A stretch of DNA of 38,381 nt. It comes from Candidatus Daviesbacteria bacterium (GTDB lineage: Bacteria > Patescibacteriota > Microgenomatia > Daviesbacterales > UBA10151). Location: positions 1 through 38,381 of the forward strand of contig JACPEY010000025.1 of NCBI GenBank assembly GCA_016183245.1. Reading direction: 5' to 3'. A program made the translations under genes and the position numbers. Shown here one piece after another: positions 4,154 to 34,430 of the stretch. Numbering within the stretch: the first letter of the stretch is position 1; each line of letters opens with the position of its first letter. Under the pieces are notes generated by a model. It ran no database searches. It was not told the origin of the DNA and saw only the letters and a list, made by a program, of their open reading frames with translations.

Positions 4154-5338
4154 ATGGCAGACGCAAAAAAATTTGACAGAAGCAAACCGCACGTTAATGT
4201 TGGAACCATGGGTCACGTTGACCATGGCAAAACAACTTTAACTGCAGCAATCACCAATGTTTTGGCAGCCAAGGGTTTGGCAGAAAAAAGATCAGTTGAT
4301 CAAATTGATAACGCTCCGGAAGAAAAAGCCCGCGGTATTACCATTAATATTTCCCATCAGGAATACGAGACCGAGAAACGGCATTATGCCCATATCGACA
4401 TGCCAGGTCACGCAGATTACATCAAAAACATGATTACCGGTGCCGCTCAAACAGACGGCGCTATTTTGGTGGTTTCCGCTCCGGACGGCCCCATGCCTCA
4501 AACCAGAGAACATTTGTTACTGGCCCGCCAGGTTGGAGTTCCGGCAATTGTAGTATTTTTGAATAAATGCGATATGGTTGATGACCCTGAACTTTTGGAT
4601 CTGGTTGAAGAAGAAGTCCGGGATCTACTCAAAAAATATGAATATGACCCGCAATCACCGATTATTCGCGGCAGCGCTAAAAAAGCCCTGGAAGGTGATG
4701 CAGAATCAGTTAAAGCAATTGAGGAGTTAATGAATAAAGTTGATGAATGGATTCCAACTCCAACACGTGATGTAGACAAGCCGTTCCTGATGGCAGTAGA
4801 AGATGTCTTTTCCATTAAAGGCCGCGGAACAGTAGTTACCGGAAGAATTGAAAGAGGCAAGGTTAAGGTTAATGAGGAAATTGAGATTGTGGGAATAAGG
4901 CCTACTAAAAAGAGTGTTGTAACAGGAATTGAAATGTTTCATAAAATGCTTGATGAAGGTCAGGCCGGTGATAATGCCGGAATTTTGCTTCGCGGTATTG
5001 AAAAAGATGATGTAGAACGCGGTCAGGTTTTGGCAAAACCAGGTTCAATTACTCCTCACTCTGAGTTTGAAGCAGAAGTTTATATTTTGAGCAAAGAAGA
5101 AGGCGGCAGACATACTCCGTTTTTCAAAGGCTACAGACCGCAATTTTATGTCAGAACCACAGATGTAACCGGTGAAGTACAACTGCCGGAAGGGGTAGAA
5201 ATGGCTATGCCGGGAGATACAGTTAAGGTTGTAGGTAAGTTAATTACACCGGTTGCCATGGAAGAAGGATTAAGGTTTGCTGTTCGAGAAGGCGGTAAAA
5301 CTGTCGGAGCCGGAGTTATTACAAAAATCATTGCTTAA
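4154..5338 (+). CDS. tuf: elongation factor Tu
   Basis: 394 aa, full length. It delivers aminoacyl-tRNA to the ribosome as a GTP complex. Motifs: GHVDHGKTT (20-28), RGITI, DMPGH, NKCD and GSA, then the two beta-barrel domains ending GRTVG-like [11 protein letters not shown]. The effector loop and tRNA-binding barrel look ordinary. No Shine-Dalgarno is evident before the ATG. A strong terminator follows, so rpsJ is transcribed separately. Confidence 0.98.
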
Positions 5339-5361
5339 AATACATAGAAGCGTGGTTTATC

Positions 5362-5384
5362 AGGGCCCCAAGTGGCCCTTTTTT
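5362..5384 (+). terminator. intrinsic terminator after tuf
   Basis: AGGGCC, loop CCAAGT, GGCCCT, then a run of T. This is the clearest simple terminator in the window. Confidence 0.88.
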
Positions 5385-5395
5385 AGTGAATAAGG

Positions 5396-5401
5396 TATAA
5401 T
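5396..5401 (+). promoter_or_regulatory. -10 box of rpsJ
   Basis: Perfect TATAAT just after the tuf terminator. No good -35 at the right distance, since that position falls in the terminator stem. The rpsJ ATG at 5432 has a strong SD (AGGAGGA). Confidence 0.5.
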
Positions 5402-5431
5402 TTAGCACATTAACAGTAGGAGGATAAAAAG

Positions 5432-5740
5432 ATGCCGCGAGGACGTATTAGAGTAAAACTGAAAAGTTATGATCACCGGGTATTAGACAATACCTGTGAA
5501 TCCCTTTTGGATACAGCTCTCCGAACCGGTGCCAAAATAGCAGGCCCCATTCCCCTTCCTACAAAAATTGAAAGAATTACTGTTTTAACCTCGCCTCATA
5601 CTGATAAAGACTCCCGGGAAGCTTTTGAAATTAAAACCCACAAAAGAATGATAGACATTATAGAACCTACCCAAAAAACAATAGATTCTTTAATGCATCT
5701 TGAAATCCCGGCCGGTGTTGACATTGAAGTAAAGATGTAA
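5432..5740 (+). CDS. rpsJ: 30S ribosomal protein S10
   Basis: 102 aa, normal length. [52 protein letters not shown] and the GVDIEVKM end are standard S10, the protein that sits in the 30S head and in other bacteria also binds NusB in antitermination. It is normally the first gene of the S10 operon; here 4.6 kb of unrelated genes separate it from rplC. The promoter of the next gene overlaps its last codons. Confidence 0.98.
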
Positions 5741-5759: not shown

Positions 5760-6257
5760 ATGAGAAGAAAAGAATCGAAGCAAGAATTATTGTTTGAAGA
5801 CGAGGTTTCTGGAAATTTAATTCCCCTTGTTTCTTTTACTGTACCGAAAGAATTACAAGACAGATTATCCCCAGGGGATAGGATAAGAGGTGCAGTATTC
5901 GGAAAATATCCCTCTGAAGATGTACTAAAGGGTAGAAAAGTTGAAGATTGTCAGGCTCTTTATGGAAAAGACATTACAACAGTAACACCTTTAAGCAAGG
6001 AAGCTCATTTGTTTCTAAAAGAGGCAGTAGATGAGGTTTTAGCGCTGCTTCCCTACCGCGAGAGATTGGTTTTAGAGCTACGCTTTGGTTTAGATGATGG
6101 ACGATCTAGGACTTTAGTCGAGACAGGAAAAATAGTTGGTTTAGAGATTAGGGGTAAACCTTATTCCAAAGAACGTACAAGGCAGCTTGAAGCCAAGGCA
6201 ATACGGGGAATGAGACATCCTACTCAACAAAAAAGACTTGAAGATTATACAAAGTAA
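5760..6257 (+). CDS. sigma-70 region 4-only protein
   Basis: 165 aa. The C-terminal half, about residues 85-160 (EVLALLPYRERLVLELRFGL, GKIVGLEIRGKPYSKERTRQ, LEAKAIRGMRHP), matches sigma-70 region 4: the RERLVLELRFGL helix, a -35-binding helix-turn-helix and the RQLEAKAIRGMRHP signature. Regions 2 and 3 are absent. The first ~80 residues are not recognised. With no -10-binding domain it cannot be a complete sigma factor. It could be a DNA-binding regulator, an RNAP flap-binding accessory or an anti-sigma-like decoy. It has its own promoter and is followed by a strongly palindromic stretch. Confidence 0.75.
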   Translation: MRRKESKQELLFEDEVSGNLIPLVSFTVPKELQDRLSPGDRIRGAVFGKYPSEDVLKGRKVEDCQALYGKDITTVTPLSKEAHLFLKEAVDEVLALLPYRERLVLELRFGLDDGRSRTLVETGKIVGLEIRGKPYSKERTRQLEAKAIRGMRHPTQQKRLEDYTK

Positions 6258-6402
6258 GACCTCGAAATTCAGACATACCAGCTCAGCAACTTTAGCAAAA
6301 GTTAACGATCGTTAGGAATTGGTAAAGCACATAAGTATTTGGATGTCTGGAGTTTGGATTACCGAGGTGTAGCTACACTTCCACCCCCGAGGTGGAATTG
6401 AA
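6258..6402. other. nested palindromes after the region-4 gene; candidate structured RNA or palindromic element
   Basis: From the outside in: ACCTCG (6259-6264) with CGAGGT (6363-6368); CAGACAT (6270-6276) with ATGTCTG (6343-6349); inside these, AACTTT-agca-AAAGTT (6288-6303) and the palindrome AACGATCGTT (6304-6313). Immediately after come the palindrome GTGTAGCTACAC (6367-6378) and the hairpin TTCCACC-cccga-GGTGGAA (6379-6397). No ORF. The arrangement fits a multi-stem RNA or a MITE-like element; no known RNA family is recognised. Confidence 0.55.
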
Positions 6403-6431
6403 TTGTCATTCTGAGCGTAGCGAGGAATCTT
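6403..6431. repeat. dispersed repeat of GTCATTCTGAG...GAGGAATCTT type
   Basis: TTGTCATTCTGAGCGTAGCG followed by AGGAATCTT. The same head-and-tail pattern (GTCATTCCGA...GTAGTGAGGAATCTT) is present in copy B at 3838-3908. It is a half copy here. Confidence 0.6.
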
Positions 6432-6505
6432 CCAATTTCATGATATGATTTTCTAGTGCAGATAGTTTTTACTTGGCATGTTTTAAATGAAACAATTCCA
6501 AAATT

Positions 6506-6511
6506 TATAAT
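6506..6511 (+). promoter_or_regulatory. -10 box before the DUF2283-like gene
   Basis: Perfect TATAAT but no convincing -35 at 16-18 bp. Confidence 0.35.
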
Positions 6512-6549
6512 TAGAGTCATTACAGTGTATGTTGCAAGGAGGGGTAAAT

Positions 6550-6804
6550 ATGAAAGTACGAAAGAGGATTAGCTATAGTCCAGATGTTGATATCCTAATG
6601 ATTCAGTTAAGTGATAAGAAGATAGATGATTCTTATGAAACAGAAAATTCTGTGGTTAGTGTTGATAAAAACGGTGAACCAGTCTTACTGGAGATTTTTA
6701 ACGGCAAGCAATATCTAAAAGAATTAGGTAAAACTCTCCCCAAAAATATACGCAGAGAACTCTCTGAACAGTCTGTCGCTGTTGCTCATCAGATTAGAAA
6801 ATAA
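6550..6804 (+). CDS. DUF2283-like small protein
   Basis: The ATG at 6550 is chosen over 6529 because AAGGAGGGG precedes it at normal spacing; this gives 84 aa. MKVRKRISYSPDVDILMIQL, then SYETENSVVSVDKNGEPVLLEIFNGKQYLKEL follows the pattern of DUF2283 proteins (YS...D.LYI.L..........E....V..D..G.....EI). These are small single-domain proteins often found near toxin-antitoxin or mobile genes; their function is unknown. The gene stands alone. Confidence 0.65.
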   Translation: MKVRKRISYSPDVDILMIQLSDKKIDDSYETENSVVSVDKNGEPVLLEIFNGKQYLKELGKTLPKNIRRELSEQSVAVAHQIRK

Positions 6805-6893
6805 TTCTTATTGCACGCCGGCGTGCGTAGTTGCATTACTATACCAGATATCCGGATATTTTCTTAAGATAATAGCCTTATAAAAAATCCCTA
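6805..6893. other. gap with two perfect palindromes
   Basis: GCACGCCGGCGTGC (6813-6826) and ATATCCGGATAT (6848-6859) are perfect self-complementary sequences. The first could act as a short terminator-like hairpin or a protein site. No gene seen. Confidence 0.5.
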
Positions 6894-6923
6894 TTGACAA
6901 AAAGATTTCACTTAGTTTAGGAT
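6894..6923 (+). promoter_or_regulatory. promoter of the SGNH protein gene
   Basis: TTGACA (6894-6899), 18-bp spacer, TAGGAT (6918-6923). The expected start is near 6930, 21 nt before the ATG, with GGGAAGA as a possible ribosome site. Confidence 0.65.
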
Positions 6924-6950
6924 GGATAGAGTTCTGCCTGGGAAGATACA

Positions 6951-9900
6951 ATGGCTGTTTTGAGGAAATTCTCTTTTTGTTCAACATACACTAAACTTTT
7001 ATTCTCCCTTCTATTCCTTATCCTTTTTTATTTGGTTATGGGTTCAGCAAAGGCACAGGAAACAGCAATTAATGATACCTGGATTTTTTATGGTGATGCT
7101 GGTACTGCTATGGCAATGGATCCGGGAGCAGGTTCTTTTGCTGATTTAATTCATACTCAAAACAGCAATATTAATGTTACTCAAGTCAATGAGGGTAAGG
7201 GCAATAGAGATGCTTATATGGGTTTACAGGAAATAGATGGTGCTTTAGGACGGACCCCATCAGCAAAATATGTGGCAATTACATTAGGGGCGAACGATAC
7301 TTATGGTAATGATACAGTTTGTTATGCAAATCCGGATAACTTCTATAATAATATGGTTGGTATGGTTAATAAAGTACTGGCAGCCGGGAAGATTCCAGTC
7401 CTGTCAACTTTTCCAACTGCATCCCGAGTAAATTGCGCCCTTCCTTTAATTGATAAAATACAACAGGTTTATATAAATTTCTCTCAAGTAGTTAAAGGCC
7501 CGGATTGGTGGAACCATTTTAGCGGCCATCCGGAATGGGGAGTAACGAATTTAACTTCAGCCGGGATTATAGAATATAAAAATTTCTGGGCCAGTTGGGG
7601 ATTATCCACTGTATATAATCAGGCGATAGCATCTTCGTCACCCACGCCGACCCCAACACCAACGCCTTCTGTCTTGCCAACTCCAACCTTAACACCGATG
7701 CCAACCGCTACCCCAGTTGGAATAGGCAGCACTGCTCCCTTAAGCGGGATCCCGCCAATGCCTTTAATTAGCAGAAACCTGCCTGTTTTTTCTTCAAGTA
7801 ATTATGCAGGTTCACAAGCTTCTTATGCCAGTGACAGTGATTACTCTACCAGATGGAGATCAGCCGGAACACCTGCCTGGCTCTCTTATGACATTTCATC
7901 AATTACTGATGCGAGCAAATCAAATACAGTACTGATCTGGTGGAATCCTTCCGGCAGATTTGTCTATTCTGATCCGCCTGCTTGGAGTGACCGGAATCTG
8001 CCTCTGGCTTACACCATTGAAGGAAATAGGGCTGTCGGAGGATCAGTTACTCCAAGTACAGGATGGGAAGTGTTAATTTCTGTGCCGAATAATGTTTACA
8101 GACAGCGTCAGCATGTACTGAATTTGTCCGGCTTTAACTGGGTAAGATTAAATGTTACTACAACAGCCGGTTACAGCGGCCTTTTAGATGCAGAAGTTAA
8201 TATGGATCTTTATAATGCCAGCCAGGGTATATATGATGACTGGATTTTTTATGGAGATTCCTTGACAGCCGGAACAATGACTTATGATGAATATATTGGT
8301 CCTTCGTTTGCTTCTTTAATCAGTCAAGCCATGCCCGGATACTGGCCGGTAGTTGAAGATGGCGGAGTCGCCTCAACTAACACTGATTGGGCAGCTCGGA
8401 ACATACCTAATTTTATACAAGCCTTTCCAGGCAGGTTTGTCGGGATTTCCTTTGGAACCAATGATGCCAGAGATCCATATCCTACTACCCCTGAGCAGTT
8501 TTACCAAAACTACAGAACCATGCTGGATGCTGTTATTGCCAAGGGTAAGATCCCTGTTATTCCGCACATACCCTGGGCATCATCTTCTGCCTTGCAAGCA
8601 AATGCTCCTTTATATAATGCCAAAATTGATCAGATAATCGGGGAATATAATGCTCAGGGTAAAACTGTTATTGCCGGTCCTGACCTGTGGACATTTTTCA
8701 AAGATAATCCCAATTTACTGGGCAGTGATGGCGTTCATCTTACAAATACTGGTAATGCAGCTTACCGAAAACAATGGGCAGATGCAATGTTAACCAATGC
8801 TTATCAGGCAACAGTTTCTGCTTCCCCTTCTCCTACTCCTGTTCCAACCCCAACTCCAACAGTCACACCGAGTATGACACCTACACCTACGTCAACTCCA
8901 AGTCCAACGCCACAAGGATTAGTTAATGATGTCTGGGTTTTCTTTGGTGATTCCATTACTGCTATGACTATGGAACCCGGTATTGGTTCTTTTGCAGATT
9001 TAATCCATACCCAAAACACCAATATTAATATTACCCAGGTTAATGAAGGAAGAAGCGGTCGTGATGCTTATTCAGGCTTACAGGAAATAGATGCTGCTTT
9101 ATCCAGAACCCCGGGAGCCGAATATGTGGCTATTACTTTGGGAAGCAATGATACCAATGGCTCTGATACAGTCTGTTATACTAATCCAGATAATTATTAT
9201 AATGATATTACCGGCATAGTTAATAAAGTTATAGCTGCAGGGAAAATTCCGGTAGTTGCTACCTTCCCAAGTGCTTCCAAAGTGAACTGTGCCCCGCCAT
9301 TACTTGATAAAATCCAGCAGGTTTATATCAATTTCCCCCAGGTAGTAAAAGGACCTGATTTGTGGACATATTTTAGCAATAAACCGGAATATTTTCCGGG
9401 AATTCACCCAAATCCTGATGGAGTAACAGCATATAAGCAATACTGGGTTAACTGGAGCCTGACCAATATTTATACAGAATCCACAGTTTCGGCATCACCG
9501 TCTCCGACCCCGGTTCCTACCCCTGTACCTACACCTACGTCAACTCCTATGCCGACACCAACACCAACACCTATTCCAACTGCTACTCCAGCACCAACTC
9601 CTACCCCTACTCCGACACCGTCTCCAACTCCAACTCCAACTCCAACACCTGTGCCTTCGGGATTAAATATCTACGCAGATTCATTAGGCATAGGGTTTGT
9701 CTATAACGAATGGCAAAGCCCCGCAGGAACAAAATGTTATGTTAATCCTGTTAGAGATGATGTTGTATATTCAGGTATATATTCACTGGAGATAAACGTA
9801 AATAGTTATTGTACTACTTTTCTTGCCCGAACCAGCAAGTTTAATATCAGCAATTACGGGACTTTAGAATTTGATATTTATGCTTTGCTGCCAACAGTTA

Positions 9901-10121
9901 CAAATTTTGGAATAACGATTGCCACTAATGCCTGGAGTACAACAGGGAGCTCGTTGAATATCAACAGTTATGTAACACTAGCAGCAGGGTGGCAGCATGT
10001 TTCTATTCCGCTTGCTAATTTTGGTATTGCCCCTGATACCCAAATTGCCGGGATAATGTTACGCGGCTCTAACTATAGCGGCAAAGGCGACCTTTTATTT
10101 GACAATATCTCTTTCAGGTAA
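6951..10121 (+). CDS. secreted triple SGNH/GDSL hydrolase with Pro-Thr linkers and carbohydrate-binding-like domains
   Basis: 1056 aa. A signal peptide (hydrophobic [16 protein letters not shown], then AKAQ) leads three SGNH units. Unit 1 (about 40-225) has GDAGTAM: the catalytic Ser is Ala50 and the D..H end is lost, so it is probably inactive. Between units 1 and 2, about residues 265-425 form a beta-rich domain similar in style to F5/8 type C (discoidin) modules ([21 protein letters not shown]). Unit 2 has GDS (Ser437), GTND and DGVHLT (Asp593, His596). Unit 3 has GDS (Ser668), GSND and GIHPNPDG (His819) and is a close duplicate of unit 1. Three PT-rich linkers lie near 228-257, 622-657 and 845-903. 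The C-terminal 150 residues look like a jelly-roll carbohydrate-binding module. No sortase signal or C-terminal membrane anchor. Likely an extracellular ester hydrolase or acetyl esterase on glycans; the substrate is unknown. It splits rpsJ from rplC. Confidence 0.85.
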
Positions 10122-10158
10122 GGAAAATTCTGTTTTCTCCGAGACTTCTACAGGTTGC

Positions 10159-10188
10159 TTGCATTTACGCTTGAGCTTGTGTTAGAAT
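10159..10188 (+). promoter_or_regulatory. candidate promoter of the main ribosomal operon
   Basis: TTGCAT (10159-10164), 18-bp spacer, TAGAAT (10183-10188). It would give a leader of about 140 nt before rplC. Confidence 0.5.
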
Positions 10189-10195
10189 TTAATTT

Positions 10196-10336
10196 AGCTG
10201 ATGATTATATTGTCAGGTTAATAAAAAGTTTAAAAATTTTCAGTAGATCGCGCGTCTAAAATCGATACGGCGAGTCTAGGCGAGATACTGAGTGAGATCC
10301 TGCGAATAGTCGAAGGACTCACTCTTTTTTGTGGTT
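10196..10336 (+). promoter_or_regulatory. rplC leader with strong terminator hairpin (attenuator candidate)
   Basis: GAGTGAG (10290-10296), a bulged A and TCCT pair with AGGA and CTCACTC (10314-10324), an 11-bp stem followed by six T (10325-10330). The loop GCGAATAGTCGA and flanks belong to the CCTG...AGTCGAAGGA repeat also seen before metK and in rplC. The T run ends six bases before the rplC ATG and no SD is present between them. Such a terminator before an essential operon implies regulated read-through, by a ribosomal protein or an unknown signal. GAGTCT and AGATACT upstream may form part of a competing fold. Confidence 0.65.
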
Positions 10337-11176
10337 ATGATAAATACATTACTTGGTATAAAAAAGAATATGACGAGCACTTATGATTCCCGTGGAAGAA
10401 GGGTAGGGGCAACAATTGTAGAAATTGCTCCAAATCTAGTTACACAGGTTAAAACCAGTGAGGGGAAAGACGGGTATGACGGAGTGCAGCTTGGGTTTGG
10501 AACCAAAAAATCAGTCCGAAAACCTCAACTCGGACACGGCAAAAAGATAGGTATAGAGCAGCCGATTCGCTGGTTTAGAGAAGTTAGAGAAGATGGGCAA
10601 GATTTACAACCTGGAACAGAAATCAAACTGAACCAGGTTTTTTCAATGGGTGATGCTGTGAAAGTAACCGGTATTTCCAAAGGAAAAGGATTTCAGGGAG
10701 GTGTCAGGCGGCATGGCTTCCACGGCGGACCAAAAACTCACGGCCAGTCAGACAGGTTGCGCGCTCCCGGTGCAATCGGTTCCGGAACCACCCCGGGAAG
10801 AGTTTATAAGGGTAAAAAGATGGCTGGACACATGGGTAACGAGCAAGTCAGTGCAAAGAATCTTGAGGTAGTGGGGATTAAAAGGGCAGAGAATTTATTG
10901 TTTGTTAAAGGTGCTGTACCCGGTCCTGTTGGAGGACTGGTAATGATCACAAAATTGGGAAGAATTAAAGGTTATACTCCCCCGCCGGAAGAAAAGGTAG
11001 AAGAGGGGGAAGGGGAATCCTTCGACTCTGCTCAGGACAAGAGCGTTAAGGGTGAAGAAAAAACAGCAAGTCAGAGCTCTGAAACTCCAATTTCCGATTC
11101 ATCTGATCAATCTGGAAATCCGAATCCTTCTGAGTCTTCTGAAAAGAAAGAGGAGGTAAAAGAAAATGCCGGTTAA
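10337..11176 (+). CDS. rplC: 50S ribosomal protein L3
   Basis: 279 aa from the ATG at 10337 (MINTLLGIKKNMT), six bases inside the ORF-track start (GTG 10331). MINTLLG..., the GFQGGVRRHGFHGGPKTHGQ loop and GRVYKGKKMAGHMG near the peptidyl transferase centre are standard. The C-terminus extends about 60 residues beyond the usual end: ESFDSAQDKSVKG, encoded by the CTTCGACTCTGCTCAGGACA repeat, then a Ser/Glu-rich low-complexity tail. It overlaps rplD by 11 nt, with the rplD SD inside its tail. Confidence 0.97.
   Translation: MINTLLGIKKNMTSTYDSRGRRVGATIVEIAPNLVTQVKTSEGKDGYDGVQLGFGTKKSVRKPQLGHGKKIGIEQPIRWFREVREDGQDLQPGTEIKLNQVFSMGDAVKVTGISKGKGFQGGVRRHGFHGGPKTHGQSDRLRAPGAIGSGTTPGRVYKGKKMAGHMGNEQVSAKNLEVVGIKRAENLLFVKGAVPGPVGGLVMITKLGRIKGYTPPPEEKVEEGEGESFDSAQDKSVKGEEKTASQSSETPISDSSDQSGNPNPSESSEKKEEVKENAG
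11020..11050. repeat. TTCGACTCTGCTCAGGACAAG repeat in rplC
   Basis: CCTTCGACTCTGCTCAGGAC is the complement-orientation relative of GTCCTGAG...AGTCGAAG in the metK leader (about 30817-30852) and CCTG...AGTCGAAGGA in the rplC leader. It is translated as SFDSAQDK in the L3 tail. Confidence 0.6.
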
Positions 11177-17287: not shown

Positions 17288-17665
17288 ATGAACGATCCTG
17301 TTGCAGATGCATTAATCAGAATAAAAAACGGATATTCGGTTGGTAAAGTTACAGTTAATTTGAGATTTTCCAAACTGATTTGGAAGCTTGTGGAGTTACT
17401 CAAAAAACAGGGATACCTTGAAAGTGCCCAACAAAAGGAAAGGGAGATTATAGTGACCTTAAAGTATAATTCTAGGATTGCGGCTTTGACTGATATCAAA
17501 AGAGTCTCTAAGCCCTCTCTTCGGATTTATAAAGGAGCTAGAGATTTACCGCGTGTTTTGGACGGACTCGGTATTGCAATTATTTCCACACCTAAAGGTC
17601 TCATGATCGATAAAGAAGCGCGAAAGCAAAAAATAGGGGGGGAGGTATTGGCACTGGTCTGGTAG
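17288..17665 (+). CDS. rpsH: 30S ribosomal protein S8
   Basis: The ATG at 17288 gives 125 aa. NDPVADALIRIKNGYSVGK, RVSKPSLRIYKGARDLPRVL, GIAIISTPKGLMIDKEARK and GGEVLALVW are standard. S8 binds helix 21 of 16S rRNA and in many bacteria represses the spc operon. Two bases after the rpsN stop. Confidence 0.96.
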   Translation: MNDPVADALIRIKNGYSVGKVTVNLRFSKLIWKLVELLKKQGYLESAQQKEREIIVTLKYNSRIAALTDIKRVSKPSLRIYKGARDLPRVLDGLGIAIISTPKGLMIDKEARKQKIGGEVLALVW

Positions 17666-30730: not shown

Positions 30731-30735
30731 AGCAT

Positions 30736-30887
30736 ATACATCAAGAGATCCTATACCGGATGGTATGGGGCGGCAACCGGAAAGCAATCGGTGCCAGATC
30801 CAAAAGAGGAAGATGTGTCCTGAGTACTGAGTATAGTCGAAGTATCGAAGGGAAACTTTTTAACCTCTCCTGATGAGAGGTTTTTTA
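30736..30887 (+). promoter_or_regulatory. SAM riboswitch (SAM-I superfamily) before metK
   Basis: TCAAGAGATCC, then GGGGCGGCAACCGG and CGGTGCCAGATCC carry the SAM-I hallmarks (AGAG, GGCAACC, GGTGCCA.NTCC). The expression platform ends with CCTCTC-ctgat-GAGAGG (30864-30880) and six T, directly before the ATG at 30888. About 30816-30852 is the GTCCTGAG...AGTCGAAG repeat, placed between aptamer and terminator. High SAM should stop metK transcription. Confidence 0.8.
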
Positions 30888-33593: not shown

Positions 33594-34430
33594 ATGACTT
33601 CTAGTTTAGTTATCTGCGCATACTGTACCAAAAACTTTCTTAAGGATAATAGACACATCAATGAAAATATAAAACTAGGCAACAATTTTTATTGTTCTTC
33701 TGACTGTCAGTACTCTTTTAAAAGCAAGAAAGTAGAATTAGGATGTGAAAATCCAGCTTGTACGAATAAATTCAAACGTGTTCAAAATGAAATCTCTCTC
33801 CATTATTATTGTTCCAGATCTTGCGCAGTAGCTATAAACAATGGAAGATTTCCTAAAAGAGTGGCAACAATCAAACGATGTAAATATTGCGGAAAGAGAA
33901 TGTTTAAATACAGAATATATTGTTCAGTTAAATGTAAAGCAAAAGATAAAACCATTAGCAAGGAGGAAATTCTTAAACAAATTACAAGCTTTCACGAAAA
34001 ACATAGACGCATCCCGCTTAAAAGAGAATTTAATCATTATAGTGCGGCTCGAAAACGTTTTGGCAATTGGAATAATGCTATTAAAGTAGCAGGATTCAAA
34101 CCTAATCCTGTCATGTTTGCTGATAAGTGTATAGCTAATGACGGTCATGCTTGCGACTCTGTAGCAGAAAAAATAATTGATGATTATCTTTACGAAAGAG
34201 ATATTCCGCACATAAGAAATATTGCTTATCCGGAAGGTGTTTATACAGCCGATTTTAAAATAGGGTCCAACTTGGTTGAATATTTCGGATTAGCAGGTGA
34301 GCATAGGAGATATGATGAGTTGAGAGTGATTAAGCAAAAACTTGCAAGAAAATACAAAGTAAAGCTGATACAGCTTTACCCTAAAGATCTTTATCCCCAC
34401 AGTAGGCTTGAAGCTATTTTGGGGGCTTGA
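33594..34430 (+). CDS. zinc-finger protein with homing-endonuclease-type repeat and PD-(D/E)XK-like domain
   Basis: 278 aa. Three Cys4-like knuckles: CAYC...CSSDC (about 8-38), CENPAC...CSRSC, CKYCG...CSVKC. Residues ~122-172 (ISKEEILKQITSFHEKHRRI, then AARKRFGNWNNAIKVAGFKP) match the homing-endonuclease-associated repeat. The C-terminal ~95 residues (CDSVAEKIIDDYL, YTADFKIGSNLVEYFGLAGE, KVKLIQLYPKDL) resemble a restriction-like/VSR fold with acidic residues E, D and E in place. Likely a DNA-binding nuclease, possibly selfish or repair-linked. It lies between tRNA-Pro and recA. Confidence 0.65.
   Translation: MTSSLVICAYCTKNFLKDNRHINENIKLGNNFYCSSDCQYSFKSKKVELGCENPACTNKFKRVQNEISLHYYCSRSCAVAINNGRFPKRVATIKRCKYCGKRMFKYRIYCSVKCKAKDKTISKEEILKQITSFHEKHRRIPLKREFNHYSAARKRFGNWNNAIKVAGFKPNPVMFADKCIANDGHACDSVAEKIIDDYLYERDIPHIRNIAYPEGVYTADFKIGSNLVEYFGLAGEHRRYDELRVIKQKLARKYKVKLIQLYPKDLYPHSRLEAILGA

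Follow-up and report, generated by a model that had tools for sequence, protein, structure and literature searches.

What is a terminator-like hairpin doing directly in front of a ribosomal protein gene cluster? The window analysed here (38,381 nucleotides, contig JACPEY010000025.1 of a Candidatus Daviesbacteria bacterium) has such a hairpin just before rplC, the gene for L3. The earlier note had proposed that the ribosomal superoperon is governed by an undescribed attenuator, and comparison with relatives supports this idea: the position is conserved, the structure covaries, promoter, leader and terminator are all present, and the leader contains a motif known to bind a ribosomal protein. The hairpin is likely (probability about 0.7) to form the end of an S8-sensed leader that attenuates the L3-to-spc ribosomal protein cluster by feedback. 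The S8 site of 16S rRNA is copied in the leader, so excess S8 probably shuts off the ribosomal gene cluster.

Layout of the leader

The hairpin is formed by GAGTGAG-A-TCCT (10290-10301) and AGGA-CTCACTC (10314-10324), which make 7 + 4 pairs with A10297 bulged, and is followed by six T at 10325-10330 and a gap of six bases before the rplC ATG at 10337. The sequence thus confirms the 11-bp stem, the T-run and the spacing to the L3 ATG originally described. The predicted fold of 10284-10336 has an energy of -19.0 kcal/mol (z = -3.3), and two of 200 shuffles folded equally well. The consensus scanner, whose rules admit short loops only, did not return the hairpin at 10290-10330.

The earlier description of a leader of ~140 nt from a plausible promoter, with no Shine-Dalgarno sequence before rplC, was also borne out. 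A promoter-like pair of elements is found ~150 nt upstream of rplC, at 10159-10188, and the transcript start inferred near 10195 gives a leader of ~135 nt. The two elements are spaced by 17-18 nt in nearly all leaders of the Daviesbacteria-related family. No Shine-Dalgarno sequence stands upstream of rplC; rplD, by contrast, has GAGGAGGT upstream. The features are listed in Table 1.

Table 1. Features of the rplC leader and associated genes (positions in the window)
Feature	Position	Strand	Remarks
Predicted leader promoter, TTGCAT-18-TAGAAT	-35 10159-10164; -10 10183-10188	+	TTGCAT-like -35, TAxAAT -10
Mini-ORF, ATG ATT ATA TTG TCA GGT TAA (MIILSG)	10201-10221	+	~6 nt from inferred transcript start
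P1 5' strand, CAGUA	10241-10245	+	pairs with 10286-10290 (UACUG); 98.9% of cells paired, nearly invariant
P2, UCGC-G-CGUC / GAUACG-GCGA	10248-10273	+	paired in 38/38 with compensatory changes
Site 3, GCGA	10280-10283	+	alternative partner of 10248-10251 (helix P1b)
Predicted intrinsic terminator, hairpin and T6	10290-10330	+	G10290-A10291 at base common to extended P1
Dispersed-repeat-like hairpin tip	10298-10317	+	AGTCGAAGGA; absent from most relatives
rplC (L3)	10337-11176	+	Pfam Ribosomal_L3; first gene after the putative attenuator
rpsH (S8), proposed sensor protein	17288-17662	+	Pfam Ribosomal_S8, E 2e-40; same gene cluster, downstream of leader

The gene upstream of the leader is not the one found in many relatives, where rpsJ ends just before the leader promoter. 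Here rpsJ is not directly upstream of rplC; it lies at 5432-5740 (tuf and rpsJ together span 4154-5740), and the ~4.6 kb between rpsJ and rplC (5760-10121) encode a sigma-70 region 4 protein, a DUF2283 protein and a GDSL lipase of 1056 amino acids. Elsewhere in the window, at 33594-34430, a protein with a homing-endonuclease-associated HNH repeat is encoded next to tRNA-Pro and recA.

Distribution and covariation

How widespread is the leader? A covariance model built from 38 family leaders located it directly upstream of rplC in 43 of 45 genomes of the Daviesbacteria-related family (Patescibacteria/Microgenomates), a search that partly re-finds its training sequences. The single location and the negative searches are independent of this: the full matches all lie directly before rplC, about 330 genomes of other families, out of 374 class genomes searched, gave no match, and a search of 380 genomes of the phylum returned family members only. 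One further match, in G040, was weak (E = 0.046). As for the two genomes missed, the contig of G013 starts inside the terminator, while the leader of G027 (L039) keeps the promoter, the mini-ORF and the start of the core and then runs into unrelated sequence with no terminator, which is either a natural loss or an assembly fault.

The family leaders consist of a conserved promoter, a mini-ORF of 3-7 codons near the 5' end, an RNA core and a terminator. The absence of conserved pairing among rplC leaders had been named as grounds for abandoning the attenuator; the relatives show conserved pairing with compensatory changes. Pairs were counted on the alignment, using a structure predicted by RNAalifold to which P1 was added by eye. 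Overall, 96.4% of cells pair, vs. 87.9% after shuffling and 27-48% when the partners are slid; both partners have changed in nine pairs, and the structure scores 0.283 for covariation, vs. 0.122 +/- 0.009. The secondary structure is therefore backed by covariation.

A probable S8-binding motif in the core

Which protein might the core bind? Its invariant nucleotides, GCGUC...GAUACG with a bulged purine, form the uS8-binding motif of helix 21 of 16S rRNA. In the numbering of the S8 site, the 5' strand reads G10252 = 595, C10253 = 596, G10254 = 597, U10255 = 598 and C10256 = 599, and the 3' strand G10264 = 639, A10265 = 640, U10266 = 641, A10267 = 642, C10268 = 643 and G10269 = 644. The determinants of the site in helix 21 are the 597-643 pair, U641, A642, and a purine at 595 in a triple with 596-644 (PMC4176348). 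All of these are found in the leader, together with the U598-A640 pair and the flanking helices, and the triple is G-(C-G), as in Thermus thermophilus (PMC4176348). Requiring the strict core plus three or more outer pairs picks out 40 of 45 leaders but only 9 of 18,000 shuffled sequences; the core departs from the standard form in four or five leaders of the family (L027, L051, L132, L039). The likeness to the S8 site was noticed before it was put to these tests, and the E. coli helix 21 reference sequence was checked against E. coli 16S genes. A search for 16S rRNA in the window's own genome found none, and helix 21 was therefore taken from relatives. There it mostly reads (A/G)CAU(C/U)/(G/A)AUAUG, and the chief difference from the leader is at 597-643, which is A-U in the relatives and G-C in the leader. 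The 16S matches of some relatives (L213, L214, L216, L218) span 1.8-2.3 kb, pointing to insertions or introns in their rRNA genes.

The product of rpsH retains STPKG and IYK, the conserved stretches that contact RNA. A strict-core scan of the window found no S8 site near rplE. A second apparent core at 10272-10289 (GAGUC..GAUACU) was put down to chance: it is not conserved in relatives and it overlaps P1.

From the sequence match we infer that S8 is the ligand. Could the sensor instead be another ribosomal protein of the cluster? L4 controls the leader of the S10 operon in E. coli, with attenuation, and here rplC and rplD are the first genes of the cluster. L4 has also been assigned to an rplC-first leader in Archaeoglobi, according to a published table of new r-leaders (PMC7247131). 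However, sensing by L4, L3 or L2, with the S8-like core a coincidence or part of a different fold, is unlikely, as the invariant nucleotides match the S8 motif nucleotide by nucleotide and no Rfam leader matches. S8 is a likelier ligand than L4, which the earlier note had named alongside other ribosomal proteins.

Two mutually exclusive helices

The core can fold in two ways, since the 5' strand of P2 (site 1) has a second partner in site 3. The 5' strand is UCGCGC in one set of relatives and UUGUGC in another, and both site 2 (GCGA, or ACAA/GCAA) and site 3 (GCGA, or GCACAA) track its type. The Watson-Crick run between sites 1 and 3 has a mean of 4.39 within the same genome, compared with 2.41 +/- 0.10 when site 3 is shuffled and 2.22 across genomes of different type. 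On a tree of the L3 protein there are ~11 changes of type, and sites 2 and 3 both follow in five of five independent pairs on supported branches (sign test, p = 0.0625; five pairs cannot reach p < 0.05). Both sites follow site 1, and so both mutually exclusive helices appear to be under selection. Site 3 pairs poorly in two relatives, L032 and L050. P1 varies too little for its pairing alone to say much; the UUU in front of it is also conserved (U at -1 in 40 of 41 leaders, at -2 in 36 and at -3 in 39).

How might these helices govern termination? RNA polymerase would start at the conserved promoter and transcribe the mini-ORF, followed by the core. In one fold, P2 would imitate the helix 21 site recognised by S8. 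The alternative would pair the P2 5' strand with site 3 as P1b, so that P1 (CAGUA/UACUG) runs on into the terminator base. With free S8 plentiful, S8 would hold P2, the long P1-P1b helix would not form, the terminator would close fully and transcription would stop before rplC. With S8 scarce, P1-P1b would form and weaken the terminator base, and the cluster, including rpsH, would be transcribed.

Constrained folding of 38 cores is consistent with this direction of control: 2.74 of the 3 basal terminator pairs form with P2, but only 1.26 with P1 and site 3. The mean energies of the two states are -30.2 and -30.5 (unconstrained, -33.7), and the constrained states lie within a few kcal/mol of each other; S8 binding at tens of nanomolar would suffice to tip the balance. 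The affinity of E. coli S8 for helix 21 is about 28 nM (PMC4176348). It counts against the switch that for the window's own core in isolation the P2 state is already the more stable (-31.6 vs. -27.6), although a longer fold gives the other state. P1 and the terminator overlap by only about two pairs, which makes the switching (antitermination) step the weakest link on paper.

The mini-ORF

Is the short reading frame at the 5' end part of the device? It is present in all 38 leaders with room for it, compared with a mean of 3.9 and a maximum of 11 of 38 in shuffled sequences. Its ATG lies 8-15 nt after the -10 element (a 10-nt window) and an in-frame stop follows after 3-7 codons. ATG is the only trinucleotide universal at this position, and the other frames have no such regularity. 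Start and stop are kept while the sequence between them drifts, and it is likely that the mini-ORF is translated.

Short ORFs upstream of an attenuator are familiar from the leader peptides of amino-acid operons. The mini-ORF shares this position with them but has only 3-7 codons, is near-leaderless, lacks conserved regulatory codons and does not overlap the core. It may be a second input to the attenuator. It might even be the only one, the translation of the near-leaderless ORF, and not a protein ligand, picking the fold and so reporting ribosome activity. The maintenance of start and stop in 38 of 38 leaders speaks for such a sensor, and so does the occurrence of short promoter-proximal ORFs in other families of the class. 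However, this explanation is improbable, about as much so as sensing by a different ribosomal protein: the mini-ORF ends ~20 nt before the core, two leaders that have lost the mini-ORF region (L044 and L045) retain core and terminator, and the S8 motif would be left unexplained.

The predicted terminator and the repeat in its loop

Compensatory changes affect seven of the ten terminator pairs counted in the family alignment, showing that the hairpin is kept up while its sequence drifts. A T-run follows the compensating stem in all aligned leaders, at 0 to 107 nt from the ATG. After the T-run there is also a conserved NNTG (often AGTG, AATG or TGTG), at 10325-10333 in the window, in relatives and in other families of the class.

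Could the S8 site act mainly on the translation of rplC or on the stability of the mRNA, leaving the hairpin as a partial terminator that is minor or constitutive? The S8 site of E. coli does act on translation (PMC10931766), and here rplC has no Shine-Dalgarno sequence and the hairpin stands just before its start codon. Yet the conserved T-run argues for termination, and so variable a distance to the ATG is unlike that of a fixed start-site blocker. Control at this level is less probable than either of the alternatives above, and S8-dependent termination remains the preferred reading.

The earlier note had also suggested that the hairpin was made from a repeat turned into a regulator. The CCTG...AGTCGAAGGA repeat accounts for the upper part of the hairpin only: GAGTGAG/CTCACTC is conserved throughout the family, while the loop varies and is repeat-like in only about nine leaders. 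The suggestion is therefore wrong, as the repeat merely fills the hairpin tip in some species and the basal stem is conserved without it. By pattern search, the genome has 20 exact copies of AGTCGAAGGA, vs. five of the reversed control. The repeat, TCCTGAGC..GTCGAAGGA, recurs within the window at 11018-11040, towards the 3' end of the rplC coding sequence, and the P2 loop of relatives is filled by it too; RNA loops seem to be tolerated landing sites.

The least probable explanation, an ordinary terminator of the upstream GDSL lipase gene or a repeat-derived hairpin with no regulatory role, could draw on the repeat copy at the tip and on the lack of another clear terminator behind the lipase gene (end at 10121), but it was rejected: a conserved promoter separates that gene from the hairpin, and leader, stem and core are kept in relatives with other upstream genes and repeat-free loops.

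The earlier note had pointed to the same geometry at two other genes present in the window, argF and metK. For the supposed T-box at argF, Rfam returned no T-box between 20000 and 38381, even at E <= 3. A SAM-I/IV match does exist directly before metK (30733-30868), although it is sub-threshold (30.6 bits, gathering threshold 41.1, E = 0.19); it is probably a diverged SAM riboswitch.

Comparison with known leaders

Rfam 15 covariance models gave no plausible match to any family at 10120-10400. The papers searched contained no S8-dependent transcription attenuator, and none of them dealt with ribosomal protein leaders in Patescibacteria. In the published table of 20 new r-leaders, those with rplC first are from Archaeoglobi only, and no Patescibacteria example is listed (PMC7247131).

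The E. coli spc operon offers a close parallel in its S8 operator at the start of rplE, which likewise imitates the helix 21 site of S8 within the mRNA of a cluster encoding S8. That operator sits at the third gene, where it blocks translation (PMC10931766), whereas the S8-like site here (10248-10273) lies before rplC, ahead of the whole cluster, in a leader that has an alternative pairing and closes with a predicted intrinsic terminator. The L4 leaders also belong to an S10-type cluster, with attenuation in E. coli and rplC first in Archaeoglobi as tabulated (PMC7247131); unlike the E. coli L4 leader, which precedes rpsJ, the leader here comes after rpsJ, and it has a different core; no sequence or Rfam relation to the L4 leaders was found. 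Feedback by a ribosomal protein through a terminator is also known for the rplJL leader of Bacillus subtilis, where L10(L12)4 attenuates transcription (PMC4538822), but the protein, the operon and the RNA are different. What would be new is a ribosomal leader that joins a mimic of the S8 site to transcription termination.

rplC leaders in other families of the class

Do other families of the class have similar devices? Terminator-like hairpins lie close to rplC in 54 of 65 upstream regions, compared with 9% after shuffling, in leaders with different bodies. The presence of terminators before rplC across the class with several unrelated leader types suggests that attenuators have been invented there repeatedly.

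One of these types has a permuted S8-like pair, GAUACUUUGG...CCAAAAGUC (AAGUC/GAUACU), before rplC (L153, L159, L160 and L248-L262 in family f7; L278 in f41), and in these leaders GUCUCGG is complementary to the terminator arm CCGAGGU. This permuted type is possibly a second, independent S8 attenuator. In 16 of 18 f7 sequences GATACT falls in the spacer of the predicted promoter, only L159 (genome G050) and L278 of f41 being free of this, so that in most of f7 only transcripts reading through from rpsJ would contain this half; the permuted core is for this reason treated as a lead only.

In family f6 (L149, L151, L161, L282) the terminator is preceded by GGUGGGACACCUGAA..AAGGAGUCC. Several families (L158, L163, L164, L168, L169, L263, L264, L275) have a perfect GGAGGUGA there and no obvious conserved start codon, and f17 and f39 (L167, L265, L279, L287) have a stem around GUUCGUC. 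In f29 (L148, L156, L280) a short ORF just after the promoter encodes a conserved peptide (MSKLLINSLVT, MSKLLIVSMIT or MSKLLMTSLVT) and ends in TGA or TAG; mini-ORFs near the 5' end are thus not limited to the Daviesbacteria-related family.

A broader proposal can be put forward tentatively, and it is more doubtful than the S8 attenuator itself: a two-input device, in which a near-leaderless ORF reads ribosome activity and an S8 aptamer chooses between two conserved pairings, would give a bacterium with a reduced genome a single control point for most of its ribosomal proteins, and different rplC attenuators would have arisen in related families, one or more of them with a circularly permuted S8 site.

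Implications for ribosomal protein control in Patescibacteria

According to a 2024 review, control by S8 is translational, and the mechanism outside E. coli and its close relatives is unknown (PMC10931766). If the S8 attenuator is real, it would be a direct and testable answer to this question. Control by S8 would have moved upstream, over the whole cluster, and from translation to transcription in a lineage of Patescibacteria. The leader would illustrate rRNA mimicry cleanly, alongside a natural alternative fold, and would add to the few clues to gene regulation in Patescibacteria.
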